Positions 21,988 to 52,412 of a stretch of DNA of 64,000 bases are shown here, one piece after another. The stretch is taken from assembly GCA_016765135.1 (NCBI GenBank), contig JAESQN010000037.1, forward strand, positions 1 through 64,000, written 5' to 3'. The position numbers were made by a program, and so were the translations under genes. Positions within the stretch are counted from its first letter, which is position 1. The number at the start of each line of letters is the position of its first letter. Source of the stretch: Robiginitomaculum sp. (GTDB lineage Bacteria; Pseudomonadota; Alphaproteobacteria; Caulobacterales; Maricaulaceae). The notes beneath the pieces were generated by a model that saw only the letters and a list, made by a program, of their open reading frames with translations, searched no databases and had not been told where the DNA came from.

Positions 21988-22470
21988 ATGGGCATTAAGA
22001 TTGGGGACAAACTTCCAGACGCGACATTTATGCATATGGGCGCGCAAGGCCCTGAACCAATAGCATCAGAAGATTTCTTCGCAGGCAAACGGGTTGCCGT
22101 TTTTGCTGTACCCGGCGCATTTACGCCCACATGTTCGGCCAAACATTTGCCAGGCTTTATGGAAAATGCCGATGCGTTGGCGGCCAAAGGCATAGATAAA
22201 ATCGCTTGCCTGTCGGTCAATGATGTCTTTGTCATGGATGCTTGGGGCCGCGACCAGAATGTCGGTGACAGCATTGACATGCTGGCGGACGGTAATTGTG
22301 ATTTTACGGCTGCTATAGAGCTTGAACTGGACGGCACGGGCTTTGGCATGGGGCGGCGTTCACAACGCTATGCCATGATTGTCAATGACGGGGTTATCGA
22401 AGCTTTAAACGTAGAGGAGGGCGGCGAATTTCGCGTCTCTTCTGCTGAATATATGTTGGAACACATTTAG
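21988..22470 (+). CDS. Peroxiredoxin (Prx5 type)
   Basis: Thiol peroxidase of the Prx5/AhpE-like group, 160 residues. The peroxidatic cysteine is C49 in the signature PGAFTPTCS. GRRSQRYAMIV and DGVIEALNVEE are family segments. A good GGAGAAAG ribosome site precedes the ATG. It leads a compact run with the SPFH and NfeD genes (22- and 21-base gaps), which may be one operon. A paralogue lies at 42993-43517. Confidence 0.93.
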   Translation: MGIKIGDKLPDATFMHMGAQGPEPIASEDFFAGKRVAVFAVPGAFTPTCSAKHLPGFMENADALAAKGIDKIACLSVNDVFVMDAWGRDQNVGDSIDMLADGNCDFTAAIELELDGTGFGMGRRSQRYAMIVNDGVIEALNVEEGGEFRVSSAEYMLEHI

Positions 22471-41335: not shown

Positions 41336-42886
41336 ATGGGGAAATTCAAACCTAGCCGCGCCCGCATTTCTGTGTTTGGCGCACTTGTTCGCGCCCGCCG
41401 GGATTTCGGCGGCAAACGCGATGCCATTATTGATGCGGATGACCGTGTACTGACCTATACGGAAATCATTCGGGCTTCATTCGCTCTCGGGAGCGCTATG
41501 AAACCTGGAACCAAAGCCCGTGAACGGGTCGGGGTTCTCTTGCCGACCGGGGCTGGCAGTATTTTATCATTTTTCGCGCTACAAGCTTCGGGCCGTGTCC
41601 CGGCCATGCTGAACTTTACCGCTGGTGCCCATAATCTTTTGGCTGCATTCAAAGCTGCTGAAGTCACCAAAGTTATCACCGCACATCGTTTTATCAAAAT
41701 CGGTCAGTTGGAGCCATTGATCGAAAAACTCTCTCCCCATGTGGAGTTTATCTATCTGGAGGATGTGCGCGATTCTATGACGACCAAAAACAAAATCGTC
41801 GCAGTTCTAGGTTCCGCTTTCCCGTCTTTATTCATGGCCAAAACGTCGTGGAAAAAACCAGCGGTGATTTTGTTCACGTCGGGCACAGAGGGCGACCCGA
41901 AAGGTGTGGCGCTTTCCCACGGTAATCTGGTGGCCAATGTGGAGCAAATCATAGCCCATATTGATGAGCTATACCCCGAAACTGATGTGGTGTTTAACCC
42001 CTTACCGACCTTTCATTGTTTCGGTTTGACAGGCGGCGCATTGTTTCCGCTGTTTGCCGGGCTTAAAGTGGCTTTATATCCGTCGCCTCTGCATGTGAAG
42101 CTTATTCCCGAGCGCATCAAAAAAGTTGGCACAACTATATTATTTGCCACGGATACTTTTCTTAGCCGTTATATTCGCTCCAGTACGGATGGGGATTTTG
42201 AAACCATTAGGTTTACAGTGTGCGGCGCGGAGCAAGTCCGCGATGAGACCCGTAATCTTGTGCGTAAAAAATCTAACATGCTTATCCTCGAAGGTTACGG
42301 CGTCACCGAAACCGCGCCTGTTATCGCCGTTAATCAACCAACGGCAAACCGCAAAGGCACCGTTGGGCATTTTCTGCCGGGAATGGAACACCGCATTGAC
42401 CCGGTGCCAGGCATTGAGCGGGGCGGGCGTTTGTTTGTGCGCGGCCCTAATGTTATGATGGGCTATATCACCACCGATAAACCGGGGGTTATTCAAGGCG
42501 TGGATAGTGGCTGGCACGATACTGGCGATGTAGTTGAAATAGACGAAGACGGTTATGTGGCCATTCGCGGGCGCGTGAAACGCTTTGCCAATATTGGCGG
42601 AGAAACCGTCTCACTTGCGGTCGTGGAAAACTGTGCCTGTGCCGTTTGGCCCGATAATCAGCATGTAGCCCTGATTAGACCCGACCCGAAAAAGGGCGAG
42701 CAAATTGTTTTACTCTCGGATTGCCCGGCGGCAAACCGCACAGATCTGCGCACATGGGCGCAAAGCCACGGCGTATCAGAGCTTTCTCTGCCTAGAAAAG
42801 TCGTGATTACGGACGAAATACCGTTGCTGGGAACAGGCAAGGTTGATTATGCAAGTTCGGCGAAAAAACTAGATGAGTTGTTGTAG
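41336..42886 (+). CDS. AMP-binding acyl-activating enzyme (Aas C-terminal-like)
   Basis: A 516-residue adenylate-forming enzyme. The phosphate loop FTSGTEGDPKG is near 182-192, followed by PTFHCFGLTGG, YGVTETAP near 319-326, HDTGDVVEIDEDGYVAIRGR near 402-421 and the C-terminal LLGTGKVDY lysine. The segment order and FTAGAHNL resemble the acyl-ACP synthetase half of Aas (2-acylglycerophosphoethanolamine pathway). The acyltransferase half is absent, so it may activate fatty acids or act with a separate acyltransferase. Confidence 0.85.
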   Translation: MGKFKPSRARISVFGALVRARRDFGGKRDAIIDADDRVLTYTEIIRASFALGSAMKPGTKARERVGVLLPTGAGSILSFFALQASGRVPAMLNFTAGAHNLLAAFKAAEVTKVITAHRFIKIGQLEPLIEKLSPHVEFIYLEDVRDSMTTKNKIVAVLGSAFPSLFMAKTSWKKPAVILFTSGTEGDPKGVALSHGNLVANVEQIIAHIDELYPETDVVFNPLPTFHCFGLTGGALFPLFAGLKVALYPSPLHVKLIPERIKKVGTTILFATDTFLSRYIRSSTDGDFETIRFTVCGAEQVRDETRNLVRKKSNMLILEGYGVTETAPVIAVNQPTANRKGTVGHFLPGMEHRIDPVPGIERGGRLFVRGPNVMMGYITTDKPGVIQGVDSGWHDTGDVVEIDEDGYVAIRGRVKRFANIGGETVSLAVVENCACAVWPDNQHVALIRPDPKKGEQIVLLSDCPAANRTDLRTWAQSHGVSELSLPRKVVITDEIPLLGTGKVDYASSAKKLDELL

Positions 42887-42992: not shown

Positions 42993-43517
42993 TTATCGGT
43001 CTTTTAGATATGCAAGCATGGTGTCCGCATCAGAGACCTCGAACGGGTCTGTTGGGCAGTCATCGGAGAAGCCTTCTTCCGAGAACATTTTGGTGATTTT
43101 CGTGTCTTCGACCAGCATGGAATAACGCCAAGAACGTGCGCCAAAACCTACATTGTTTTTGTCAACCAATGCGCCCATATGGCGGGAAAATGTACCGCTA
43201 CCGTCTGGGAGCAAATATACGTTTTTACGGTTTTGGCTCAATCCCCACTGATGCATAACGAATGCATCATTGACGGACAGGCAGATGACTTCATCAACGC
43301 CCTGGGCTTTAAATTCACCATAAAGCTCTTCATAGCGCGGCAAATGCGAGGTTGAGCAGGTTGGTGTAAATGCGCCGGGTAGGGCGAATAAAACAACGCT
43401 TTTACCTTTGAATAGATCATCGGTAGTGACAGGCAGCCATTTAAACGGATTGTCACCATCAGCGCTCTCGTCGCGAACACGGGTCATAAAGGTTACATTA
43501 GGGACGTGGGTAGGCAT
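42993..43517 (-). CDS. Peroxiredoxin (Prx5 type), second copy
   Basis: A 174-residue thiol peroxidase with peroxidatic C54 in PGAFTPTCS and further segments VICLSVNDAFVMHQW and VGFGARSWRYSMLV. A second cysteine lies in DDCPTD near residue 157. It is clearly paralogous to the protein at 21988-22470 but longer at both ends. GGAGAAAACT precedes the ATG, and a perfect 21-bp palindrome sits just upstream of that ribosome site, so it is probably regulated. Confidence 0.93.
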   Translation of the reverse strand: MPTHVPNVTFMTRVRDESADGDNPFKWLPVTTDDLFKGKSVVLFALPGAFTPTCSTSHLPRYEELYGEFKAQGVDEVICLSVNDAFVMHQWGLSQNRKNVYLLPDGSGTFSRHMGALVDKNNVGFGARSWRYSMLVEDTKITKMFSEEGFSDDCPTDPFEVSDADTMLAYLKDR

Positions 43518-43527
43518 AGTTTTCTCC

Positions 43528-43548
43528 AGATTAGAATGATTCTAATCT
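43528..43548. promoter_or_regulatory. 21-bp palindrome, likely operator
   Basis: AGATTAGAAT-G-ATTCTAATCT has perfect 10-bp arms around a single base. It lies 11-31 bases upstream of the second peroxiredoxin's start, in the 5' leader or core promoter. The shape TTAGAA-N3-TTCTAA resembles operators of the Fur superfamily, in particular alphaproteobacterial Irr (iron control element). The next gene upstream encodes an ErpA-like Fe-S carrier. Regulator identity is inference. Confidence 0.65.
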
Positions 43549-43607
43549 CGATATAGGCATTTGAAATGAGTCTGCAAGGACAAAAGGCTCGCATGTGTGA
43601 GAAAATG

Positions 43608-43955
43608 CTAAATAGAGAAACTTGTCCCGCACCCACAGGCTGCCTTGGCATTGGGATTATGTATTTTAAAGGCAGCGCCTATCAGTTCCTGGACATAATC
43701 GATTTGGCTGTCCTTGAGGAATTCTTGCGAAATCTCATCGACCAATATCCGCGCACCATCAAGTTCAATGACCATATCATCTGCGTTGGGCGCATCGGCA
43801 AAATCAAAGGCGTACTGAAAACCCGAACACCCGCCGCCGTTTACGGCCACGCGTAAAAATTTACCGCCAGCCTGTTTGGCCATAATCGCATTGATCTGTT
43901 TGGCGGCAGATTGGCTCATAGTTATATTAGCCGGGGAAATGTTTTGATTGTTCAT
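43608..43955 (-). CDS. erpA: A-type Fe-S carrier (ErpA/IscA family)
   Basis: A 115-residue A-type carrier that delivers [Fe-S] clusters to apoproteins. The three cysteines are in VNGGGCSGFQYAF and the C-terminal CGCGTSFSI. The GARILVDEISQEFLKDSQIDYV segment fits the family. ErpA and IscA cannot be separated with certainty here; no isc or suf operon is in the window. It is divergent from dgt with 64 bases between, and 90 bases upstream of the peroxiredoxin. Confidence 0.9.
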   Translation of the reverse strand: MNNQNISPANITMSQSAAKQINAIMAKQAGGKFLRVAVNGGGCSGFQYAFDFADAPNADDMVIELDGARILVDEISQEFLKDSQIDYVQELIGAAFKIHNPNAKAACGCGTSFSI

Positions 43956-49720: not shown

Positions 49721-50020
49721 CTATTCAGAAAAGCGAGAAGATGGGTCTTGTTGGCCAAGAACACCGATAATCAATATATGATAATCAACATCAATTATTT
49801 TGTAGTAAATACTGTTTTTACCATGAACGGCACGTCTTGCGCCTTCGCAAATATGATCAACAGTCTGGCAAAGCAGGGGACTGCTTGCGAGTTTTTTAAA
49901 CCGATCAAGCAAGCCTAAATGATACTTGTCGGCGCTGTCTTCTCCGAATGTTAGAAAACCCCATTCGTAAATGTTTTGTAGGTCAATTTCTGCCTCTGGG
50001 GTTAGCCTGTAACCATTCAT
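49721..50020 (-). CDS. parE: RelE/ParE-family toxin
   Basis: A 99-residue type II toxin. YRLTPEAEIDLQNIYEWGFLTFGEDSADKY is the characteristic N-terminal helical hairpin, and GARRAVHGKNSIYYKI followed by LIIGVLGQQDPSSRF is the C-terminal strand region. ParE toxins inhibit DNA gyrase. The toxin name is unrelated to the topoisomerase IV parE nearby. Its start overlaps the antitoxin stop by 4 bases. Confidence 0.9.
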   Translation of the reverse strand: MNGYRLTPEAEIDLQNIYEWGFLTFGEDSADKYHLGLLDRFKKLASSPLLCQTVDHICEGARRAVHGKNSIYYKIIDVDYHILIIGVLGQQDPSSRFSE

Positions 50021-50277
50021 ACGTCATCTTGCTTTGTTTTGGCTTTGAAAATTGCTAAAAGATCGGCGGGGTCTGTGTTCGAAACTCCGCTTTCAATGGA
50101 TTTCTCTAGCTTTGCCCGTATCCATTTAATTTGCTCAGGCGTTTCTTGGTGGCGCATTTCTCGTTCACGGATTAGGTCTCGAATAACTTCGCTTTCATTA
50201 CCAAAATGGCCCGACGCCACTTGAGCCGCAAGCCATTCTTTATTGCGTTCGGTGATTGATATACTTTGTCTAATCAT
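50017..50277 (-). CDS. parD: ParD-family antitoxin
   Basis: An 86-residue type II antitoxin. The N-terminal ribbon-helix-helix (QSISITERNKEWLAAQVASGHFGNESEVIRDLIRER) binds DNA for autoregulation, and the C-terminal acidic/basic helix neutralises the toxin. It precedes and overlaps the toxin gene (ATGA), the usual order. A 19-bp palindrome lies about 90 bases upstream. Confidence 0.9.
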   Translation of the reverse strand: MIRQSISITERNKEWLAAQVASGHFGNESEVIRDLIREREMRHQETPEQIKWIRAKLEKSIESGVSNTDPADLLAIFKAKTKQDDV

Positions 50278-50364
50278 AAAAACTGCCTCCAGAAAAAAGT
50301 AAAGTGTGTTACTATGTATTACTATATCATACCCTTGCTTGTTTTGCCAGACCTCATTTTCTCA

Positions 50365-50383
50365 CCATATTTTCAAAATATGG
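50365..50383. promoter_or_regulatory. 19-bp palindrome between parE and parD
   Basis: CCATATTTT-C-AAAATATGG has perfect 9-bp arms. It lies 88 bases upstream of the parD start and 26 bases past the topoisomerase parE stop, both on the minus strand. It may be an operator of the toxin-antitoxin pair or a hairpin ending parE transcription; no T-run supports the latter. Confidence 0.5.
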
Positions 50384-50408
50384 TAATGACAGCTTGCCGT
50401 AAGGGCAG

Positions 50409-52412
50409 TTAAACATCCAGATCATCAACATATTGCGCGTGGTCCTGGATGTATTGGTATCTTAGGTCGGCGCGTTTTCCCATTAGGGTTTCTACCAGGG
50501 CTTCGGTGGTTGGGAGGTTGTCTTCGTCCAGTGTTATACGAGCCAGAGTGCGGGTGTCGGGGTTCATGGTTGTGACCTTGAGCTGGGCCGGCATCATTTC
50601 GCCGAGGCCTTTAAATCGCCCGATTTCGATTTTGCCACGCCCGGTGAACTCGGTGTCTATCAGCAGTTGTTTATGGTCTTCATCATTAGCGTACATGGAT
50701 TTGCCGCCTTGGGTGATGCGAAACAGGGGCGGCATAGCCATATACAGCCGGCCTTCATGGAGCAGGTTTGGCATATAGCGATAGAAAAACGTGATCAAAA
50801 GTGCCGCGATATGAGCACCGTCCACATCGGCATCGGTCATGATAATGACCCGCTCATAGCGCAGATCGTCTGGGTTAAACTTTTTGCCGAGACCAACGCC
50901 GAGCGCAGTTGCCAGGTCATTGATTTCTTTATTGGCAGCGATTTTGGCGTAGCTGGCGCTTTCCACATTCAGGATTTTACCTTTGAGCGGCAAAATAGCC
51001 TGGGTTTTACGGTTGCGCGCTTGCTTGGCAGAACCGCCCGCGCTTTCGCCCTCGACGATAAAAATTTCGGTGCCTTCAGCCGTTTTATTGGAGCAATCCG
51101 CCAGCTTGCCGGGCAGGCGTAATTTGCGGGTGGCTGCCTTGCGTTTGACGTCGCGAGCCTTGCGGCGGCGCATCCGGTCATCGGCTTGCTCGATGACATA
51201 TTCCAAAAGCTTGGTCGCGTCTTTAGGTGATCCGGCCAGCCAGTGATCGAACGGGTCGCGCACGGCCATCTCAACAACGCGCACAGCCTCCGCATTGGAC
51301 AATCTGTCTTTGGTCTGGCCCTGAAATTCTGGTGAGGACAAGAACACCGAGACCAAAGCCCCGGCACTATTCATCACATCGTCCGGTGTGATGTTTGAGG
51401 CTTTCTTGGACATGCCGGAAATATCGGCATAGGCGCGCAAACCTTTGGTCAAAGCTGAGCGAAAGCCCTGTTCATGGGTGCCGCCGCCCAGGGTGGGGAT
51501 GGTGTTACAATAGGAACGCACAAAACTGTCTGCATCACCAAAGCCCTGGGGTGACCAACTTACCGCCCACTCAACCCGGCCATGACCGGTTTCCGCCTTG
51601 CTACGGCCCTTGAAAATTTCCGGCGTGACAGTTACTTTGTTACCGAGTGTTTCTTTGAGAAAATCAGATAGACCGCCCGGGAACAAAAATACGGCTTCGG
51701 TGGGTACCGTTTCCAAATTGGCCACAAGTTCCGGCGCACATTTCCAGCGGATTTCTACGCCGGGCTGGAGGTAGGCTTTGGCACGGGCCATGCGAAACAG
51801 ACGGGCAGGGGAGAAATGGGCTTTTGGCCCAAAAATTTCCGGGTCGGGGTGAAACGAAACCTTCGTACCGCGCCGGTTAGGCGTATCCCCAAGATGTTCA
51901 AGCTTGCCTATGGCCTTACCGCGTTTAAAACTTTGGCGGTATAATTTACGCCCCCTGGCTACCTCAACAATCAGATGGTCCGACAAAGCATTGACCACCG
52001 AGACACCAACACCGTGCAAGCCGCCAGAGGTCTGATAGGCTTTGTCGTCAAATTTACCGCCCGCGTGCAGGGTTGTCATAATCACTTCGAGCGCGGATTT
52101 ATTCTTGTATTTCGGGTGCGGGTCTACGGGGATGCCGCGCCCATTATCACTCACCGAAAGATAGCCGCTCACGTCCAGTTCCACCTCGATGCGGCTCGCA
52201 TGTCCGGCCACGGCCTCGTCCATTGAATTGTCCAAAACCTCTGCGAACAAATGGTGCAAGGCGCGAGCATCCGTGCCGCCAATATACATGCCAGGGCGCA
52301 GGCGCACAGGCTCAAGTCCTTCGAGAACCTGAATGTCCTTGGCGGAATAATCCTTCTCGGCTTTGTCTTTAGAGGAGCCGCTAAATAGCTCGTTTTGATT
52401 CGCTTTTGCCAT
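50409..52412 (-). CDS. parE: DNA topoisomerase IV subunit B
   Basis: ATPase and TOPRIM subunit of the decatenating enzyme, 667 residues. The GHKL ATPase domain has LDNSMDEAVAGHA, DNGRGIPVD and YQTSGGLHGVGVSVVNALS. The TOPRIM domain has EGESAGGSAKQARNRKTQAILPLKGK and MTDADVDGAHI. The first 20 residues precede QVLEGLEPVRLRPGMYIGGT, typical of ParE and shorter than GyrB. The final 16 residues are duplicated at 48812-48864. parC is not in the window. Confidence 0.95.
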   Translation of the reverse strand: MAKANQNELFSGSSKDKAEKDYSAKDIQVLEGLEPVRLRPGMYIGGTDARALHHLFAEVLDNSMDEAVAGHASRIEVELDVSGYLSVSDNGRGIPVDPHPKYKNKSALEVIMTTLHAGGKFDDKAYQTSGGLHGVGVSVVNALSDHLIVEVARGRKLYRQSFKRGKAIGKLEHLGDTPNRRGTKVSFHPDPEIFGPKAHFSPARLFRMARAKAYLQPGVEIRWKCAPELVANLETVPTEAVFLFPGGLSDFLKETLGNKVTVTPEIFKGRSKAETGHGRVEWAVSWSPQGFGDADSFVRSYCNTIPTLGGGTHEQGFRSALTKGLRAYADISGMSKKASNITPDDVMNSAGALVSVFLSSPEFQGQTKDRLSNAEAVRVVEMAVRDPFDHWLAGSPKDATKLLEYVIEQADDRMRRRKARDVKRKAATRKLRLPGKLADCSNKTAEGTEIFIVEGESAGGSAKQARNRKTQAILPLKGKILNVESASYAKIAANKEINDLATALGVGLGKKFNPDDLRYERVIIMTDADVDGAHIAALLITFFYRYMPNLLHEGRLYMAMPPLFRITQGGKSMYANDEDHKQLLIDTEFTGRGKIEIGRFKGLGEMMPAQLKVTTMNPDTRTLARITLDEDNLPTTEALVETLMGKRADLRYQYIQDHAQYVDDLDV

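Follow-up and report, generated by a model that had tools for sequence, protein, structure and literature searches.

Irr and its boxes are already known from the Alphaproteobacteria. We take the consensus of the Irr operator (the ICE or Irr box) to be a TTAGAA-N3-TTCTAA-like dyad near target promoters. The N-terminal Cys-Pro heme regulatory motif belongs to the B. japonicum type and is not universal in Irr. For PerR of Bacillus, the operator (the PerR box) is presumably TTATAATnATTATAA, and we take His37, Asp85, His91, His93, and Asp104 to be the Fe-site ligands of the B. subtilis protein. For OxyR, the classic targets are katG, dps, and peroxiredoxins, and the OxyR regulon overlaps the target genes found here. 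As stated in the available part of PMC8638967, Irr shares an Asp and an Asn with PerR, lacks the CxxC motif, and regulates many genes in common with it, catalases and peroxidases. In R. sphaeroides, according to the available part of PMC3413700, loss of Irr raises peroxide resistance, and mbfA and ccpA are direct targets with Irr boxes. Degradation of Irr both by heme and by H2O2 is described in the available part of PMC4902296.

Here, a dyad of this kind was analyzed in a genome of the family Robiginitomaculaceae. The window, that is, the whole stretch of 64,000 nucleotides that was analyzed, contains at positions 43528-43548 the perfect 21-bp dyad AGATTAGAATGATTCTAATCT, in which arms of 10 bp flank one center base (10+1+10); the sequence is exactly as claimed in an earlier sequence-only reading. 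Within it lies the conserved operator core TTAGAAT-g-ATTCTAA (7-1-7; 43531-43545), a predicted Irr-type FUR-family dimer site; neither feature is assigned to a strand. The 15-bp functional core reads TTAGAATgATTCTAA. A perfect dyad had been held to be rare by chance. In Markov simulations of the window, dyads with arms of at least 10 bp were expected 0.083 times per 64 kb for a gap of 1 and 0.32 times per 64 kb for gaps of 0 to 4. Because the window actually holds two gap-1 dyads (43528-43548 and 50364-50384), perfection alone is only moderately rare, and it is the TTAGAA-N3-TTCTAA core that is truly rare: five copies were found in the 2,874,980-base genome versus none of the reversed control pattern, with about 0.11 expected from the dinucleotides of the window.

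The second perfect 21-bp dyad, ACCATATTTTCAAAATATGGT, separates a gene for a type II topoisomerase subunit (50409-52412, minus strand; ParE/GyrB-like by eye), which faces it with its 3' end, from two overlapping small genes that start on its other side (49721-50277, minus strand; 86 and 99 aa). By eye, the latter resemble a ParD/ParE-type toxin-antitoxin pair.

The dyad at 43528-43548 lies directly upstream of prx2 (42993-43517, minus strand), its predicted target, which encodes a Redoxin-family (Prx5-like) peroxiredoxin of 174 aa (Pfam PF08534, 1.1e-27). The ribosome site GGAG (43524-43527, minus strand) stands 6 nt before the ATG and abuts the dyad, so that the distance is 0 rather than the 4 bases given earlier. 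On the other side, a putative -10 element, TATATC (43550-43555, minus strand), and a putative -35 element, TTGCAG (43572-43577, minus strand), 16 nt apart, were seen by eye and, by regular expression, in the genus orthologues. A TTG...TA(T/A) promoter-like pair was found in this way 31 to 33 bp before the core in 8 of the 10 genus Prx2 orthologues. The putative prx2 promoter resembles what we take to be a Caulobacter-type CTATATC element; a scan for E. coli-consensus promoters and terminators returned nothing at prx2, the putative -10 and -35 included. The predicted transcription start would fall inside the dyad. Thus, the view that the dyad is ideally positioned for repression is borne out by its placement, after the predicted -10 and against the ribosome site.

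An ErpA-like A-type Fe-S carrier gene (43608-43955, minus strand) lies upstream of prx2 in the same reading direction and stops about 60 bp short of the dyad. Its product scores 123.6 bits against the NCBIfam ErpA cut-off of 117 (NF010147), in agreement with the earlier assignment, and we treat the gene as a neighbor only. The paralogous peroxiredoxin gene prx1 (21988-22470, plus strand) had been said to lack such a site, and the upstream search agreed: the best core match within about 300 bp had 5 mismatches in 12 positions. The window also holds an acyl-ACP synthetase-like gene (41336-42886, plus strand), the product of which matches NF005291, a model of a bifunctional acyl-ACP--phospholipid O-acyltransferase, over its C-terminal part alone (positions 624-1132 of 1140).

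The sequence-only reading was to be abandoned if no similar sites occurred elsewhere; identical half-sites were found at dps, at katG, and at two Irr-type regulator genes, RegA and RegB. The core lies 13 bp upstream of the start of prx2 and 10, 9, and 77 bp upstream of those of RegA, dps, and katG, and the fifth copy is located 15 bp 3' of RegB. No iron-uptake or heme-synthesis gene is marked by any of the five exact sites, and the co-marked genes share peroxide defense, which speaks against the iron or heme control proposed earlier. In front of prx2, dps, and RegA, the box comes immediately after the predicted -10 and borders on the ribosome site or the start (by eye), a position that would suit repression. 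At katG and at rubrerythrin genes of relatives, it is mostly ahead of a TTGAC-like -35 (by eye), where it would suit either repression or activation.

At the place of the box behind RegB (L105, 2261-2275; G000:C23:28760), relatives have a rubrerythrin gene and an Fe-S oxidoreductase gene. The rubrerythrin beside RegB seems to have been lost from the present genome with the box left behind. The rubrerythrin protein of the relatives had no match in this genome in a search run without a positive control, and PF02915 gave two weak matches there (26.3 and 23.5 bits). For sites with two mismatches, the genome gave 40 in all versus 43 for the control, and since there was no excess, the regulon was not extended with them. 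One box of this class, ATATAATGATTCTAA (L025, 1501-1515; G000:C31:21514), lies 12 bp before an OxyR-like gene, the class as a whole being not above background.

The prx2 site was conserved throughout the genus. When Prx2 was searched in 14 genus genomes (E<=1e-40), it was present in 10, with no match at this threshold in G105, G106, G108, and G110. Exact half-sites were found upstream of prx2 in all 10 orthologues, at distances of 13 to 46 bp to the start, and the box was intact even at 46 bp (G115), 43 bp (G111), and 24 bp (G109). The ErpA-like neighbor was kept beside prx2 in only six of these orthologues, with none seen next door in the other four. Because the site stays where the neighbor is absent, it follows prx2 and not ErpA, and the use of the ErpA-like gene as an argument for iron control fails. 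In G110, a 99% complete genome of the same genus, the Irr-type gene, Prx2, and the site are missing all three together. The outer 3 base pairs of the dyad were not kept in relatives (0 to 1 extra pairs in eight of nine, 6 in G112); thus, the conserved unit is about 15 to 17 bp. The 6 further pairs upstream of prx2 in G112 (L065) give a perfect 27-bp dyad in that relative only. Of 22 further Prx2 loci inspected outside the genus, a single one has an exact site (G104, at -106), and prx2 control is therefore mostly a genus trait.

A core scan was carried out over 137 genomes of the family, labeled Robiginitomaculaceae in the tree. The core was present in 34 genomes, with 55 sites in all, and 47 of these adjoin prx2, dps, katG, rubrerythrin, an Irr-type gene, or an MFS gene. 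By our own classification with proteins from site loci, 11 sites belong to prx2, 11 to dps, 9 to katG, 12 to rubrerythrin (2 shared with a divergent MFS gene), 3 to an Irr-type gene alone, and 1 to an MFS gene alone; because some of the reference genes were first encountered at sites of this kind, the present genome is not an independent test of this tally. The remaining eight sites are beside no target gene (G015, G017, G020, G032, G044, G087, G093, and G126). In genus g18, the box was seen before an MFS transporter gene (L100, L103, and L101), which is divergent from rubrerythrin in two of the three loci.

Irr-type genes, called with RegB at our own threshold of E<=1e-15, were detected in 34 of the 137 genomes. 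The site was present in 26 of these 34 versus 8 of the 103 others (Fisher p 2.6e-14, not corrected for kinship and, because the species are related, not to be taken literally). Two groups of exceptions count against an Irr reading. No exact site is present in eight of the Irr-bearing genomes (G030, G031, G118, G119, G123, G131, G134, and G135), and eight genomes have a site with no Irr-type gene detected. In seven of the latter, the site is beside no target gene; the eighth, G111, is 79% complete and has its two sites at prx2 and dps.

When named genomes were scanned with the regulator alignment, 80 loci were obtained. The regulator was beside rubrerythrin in 31 of them, followed by an Fe-S oxidoreductase gene in 30, and a box with at most 1 mismatch preceded rubrerythrin in 23 of the 31. 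In total, 42 boxes were counted at this tolerance versus 0 for the control in the 616,570 bases of the 80 loci, 49 of which had no box. At locus L211, the regulator, katG, rubrerythrin, and the oxidoreductase are consecutive genes, and both katG and rubrerythrin are preceded by a box.

The genome has four FUR-family genes, two of which are Irr-type: RegA (C38, beside katG) and RegB (C23). RegB exceeds the NCBIfam IrrA cut-off (155.4 versus 150); RegA is below it (140.4 versus 150), yet IrrA is its best match. No cysteine occurs in either sequence, and both therefore lack the CxxC zinc site of PerR as well as the Cys-Pro heme motif. In alignment with B. subtilis PerR (2fe3), RegA and RegB keep every one of the Fe-ligand places named above, and the aligned family members retain the HxH His cluster (H91 and H93). 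In the DNA-reading helix, both carry the PerR/Irr-type Asn, whereas the Fur/Mur homologue on C39 has the Fur-type Arg (VYRTL); near the Asp104 place, they have Asp and the C39 protein has Glu. Because Irr shares these markers with PerR in the account given by the available part of PMC8638967, they split RegA and RegB from Fur, not Irr from PerR.

The regulator tree (137 columns, few resolved forks) was used only for the genus clade and the pairing of RegA with G105. The genus regulators, 14 rows of which one repeats G107 as a named genome, group in a single clade (100/100), and RegA branches together with the protein that is linked to katG in G105 (100/98); RegA and RegB thus appear to be paralogous within the genus group. 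The prx2 site was probably controlled ancestrally by a RegB-type protein, since in several relatives that have the site, the only close copy is of the RegB type. RegA seems to be the younger paralogue, one that arose inside the genus.

The described systems closest to the locus are Irr, PerR, and the OxyR regulon. The predicted operator is an A+T-rich dyad, like the Irr box, and lies near target promoters in a genome that encodes an Irr-family protein. RegA and RegB resemble alphaproteobacterial Irr in their best profile match, their His cluster without CxxC, and their Asn and Asp markers; unlike B. japonicum Irr, they have no cysteine and hence no heme regulatory motif. The two targets verified for R. 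sphaeroides Irr in the available part of PMC3413700, mbfA and ccpA, are likewise oxidative-stress genes. Unlike known Irr systems, this one comprises two paralogues, and its predicted targets are prx2, dps, and katG (plus rubrerythrin in relatives), with exact sites at no iron-uptake gene. The predicted regulon of catalase, Dps-type, and peroxiredoxin genes is similar to that of PerR, and the 7-1-7 site differs from the PerR box at one place per half. The Fe-site residues, Asp104 included, and the Asn are also those of PerR, a likeness common to Irr and not decisive. RegA and RegB differ from PerR in being nearer Irr by profile, lacking the structural zinc cysteines, and being alphaproteobacterial.

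Taken together, the dyad is very probably the operator of an Irr-clade FUR-family repressor placed over the prx2 promoter start, within a peroxide-defense regulon. Judging from the arrangement of elements, a homodimer of the repressor would read the heptamers TTAGAAT and ATTCTAA, seated downstream of the -10 element and ahead of the ribosome site. Because the bound dimer would cover the predicted transcription start, RNA polymerase would be blocked and prx2 kept off. The same repressor or repressors (RegA and/or RegB) would keep dps and katG repressed, as well as the rubrerythrin operon of relatives. Once the repressor lost activity, most likely on peroxide, prx2, dps, and katG would be switched on together. 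Such loss could come about by oxidation of a PerR-like Fe site or by the heme- or peroxide-driven loss reported for rhizobial Irr. Peroxide appears the more likely signal than iron or heme, because all targets share peroxide defense and Prx2 itself needs no iron.

The same operator and Irr-clade protein could respond instead to iron or heme as in rhizobia, and the two explanations overlap in all but the signal. The repressor would then be active at low iron, sparing iron-rich enzymes, and be released by heme. IrrA as the best match of both RegA and RegB, the conserved H91 and H93, and targets that include an iron store (dps) and a heme enzyme (katG) would suit such a signal, as would the Irr boxes at mbfA and ccpA (PMC3413700) and the heme-driven degradation of Irr, which the available part of PMC4902296 reports for H2O2 too. 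However, iron sparing does not explain repression of prx2, the product of which needs no iron; RegA and RegB have no heme regulatory motif, and the exact sites avoid iron-uptake and heme-synthesis genes. We regard an iron or heme signal as plausible but less probable than not. As for the regulator, the palindrome had been called Irr/Fur-like, and its probable assignment to the Irr branch is upheld at family level, through the sites at dps, katG, and the Irr-type genes and through the co-occurrence. Fur-family operators are A+T-rich dyads, and the C39 Fur gene has a two-mismatch site nearby, so that the C39 Fur/Mur homologue or Zur (C52) might be considered. Nevertheless, the sites track Irr-type genes across the family genomes, and the site-linked RegA and RegB carry Asn and Asp in place of the Arg and Glu of C39 (markers from the available part of PMC8638967), which makes a canonical Fur operator very unlikely.

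An OxyR operator would agree with the target genes, and the genome encodes a homologue with 37% identity to E. coli OxyR. However, OxyR is an unrelated LysR-type protein with an unrelated site, and the dyad is a 7-1-7 FUR-type box. A homologue (E<=1e-50) was present in 20 of 34 site-bearing versus 70 of 103 other genomes (counted by hand), giving no family-wide link, and G112, a 100% complete genome, has the prx2 site and no OxyR match at this threshold. An OxyR operator is thus highly improbable here; the homologue is additional and could share control of the target genes. Least credible of all, with hardly any chance of being right, is an RNA element in which the dyad forms a hairpin masking the ribosome site. 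The fold next to GGAG reaches -11.4 kcal/mol with a z of -2.56 over 57 nt, but z is only -1.10 over 121 nt. In addition, the predicted start is inside the dyad, the letters are conserved and most relatives have lost the outer arm pairs, and the box at katG and rubrerythrin, mostly before the -35, is therefore not in the RNA.

For the repressor of the preferred reading, the Irr-clade protein, we tentatively consider a bolder possibility, less probable than its alternatives taken together: the Cys-free Irr-type proteins may be true peroxide sensors with a PerR-like Fe site that ignore heme and, alongside OxyR, control a second peroxide regulon, which prx2 would have joined at the genus root. If so, this would apply to Robiginitomaculaceae, perhaps to many alphaproteobacteria with the Irr-rubrerythrin pair, and "Irr" would be a branch with both iron/heme sensors and peroxide sensors. 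If the signal is peroxide, proteins annotated as iron response regulators would often be peroxide regulators. A literature search among open-license papers returned neither this target combination with a genus-wide prx2 site nor any match for an Irr box together with a peroxiredoxin. One palindrome has led to a testable five-site regulon with likely regulators named in a little-studied family, and has brought to light a wider module of Irr-type regulator and rubrerythrin in which the box is conserved. In genus g18, the gene immediately upstream of prx2 is Dps-like (L081, L082, L084, L086, and L088; by eye), another sign that both work together.
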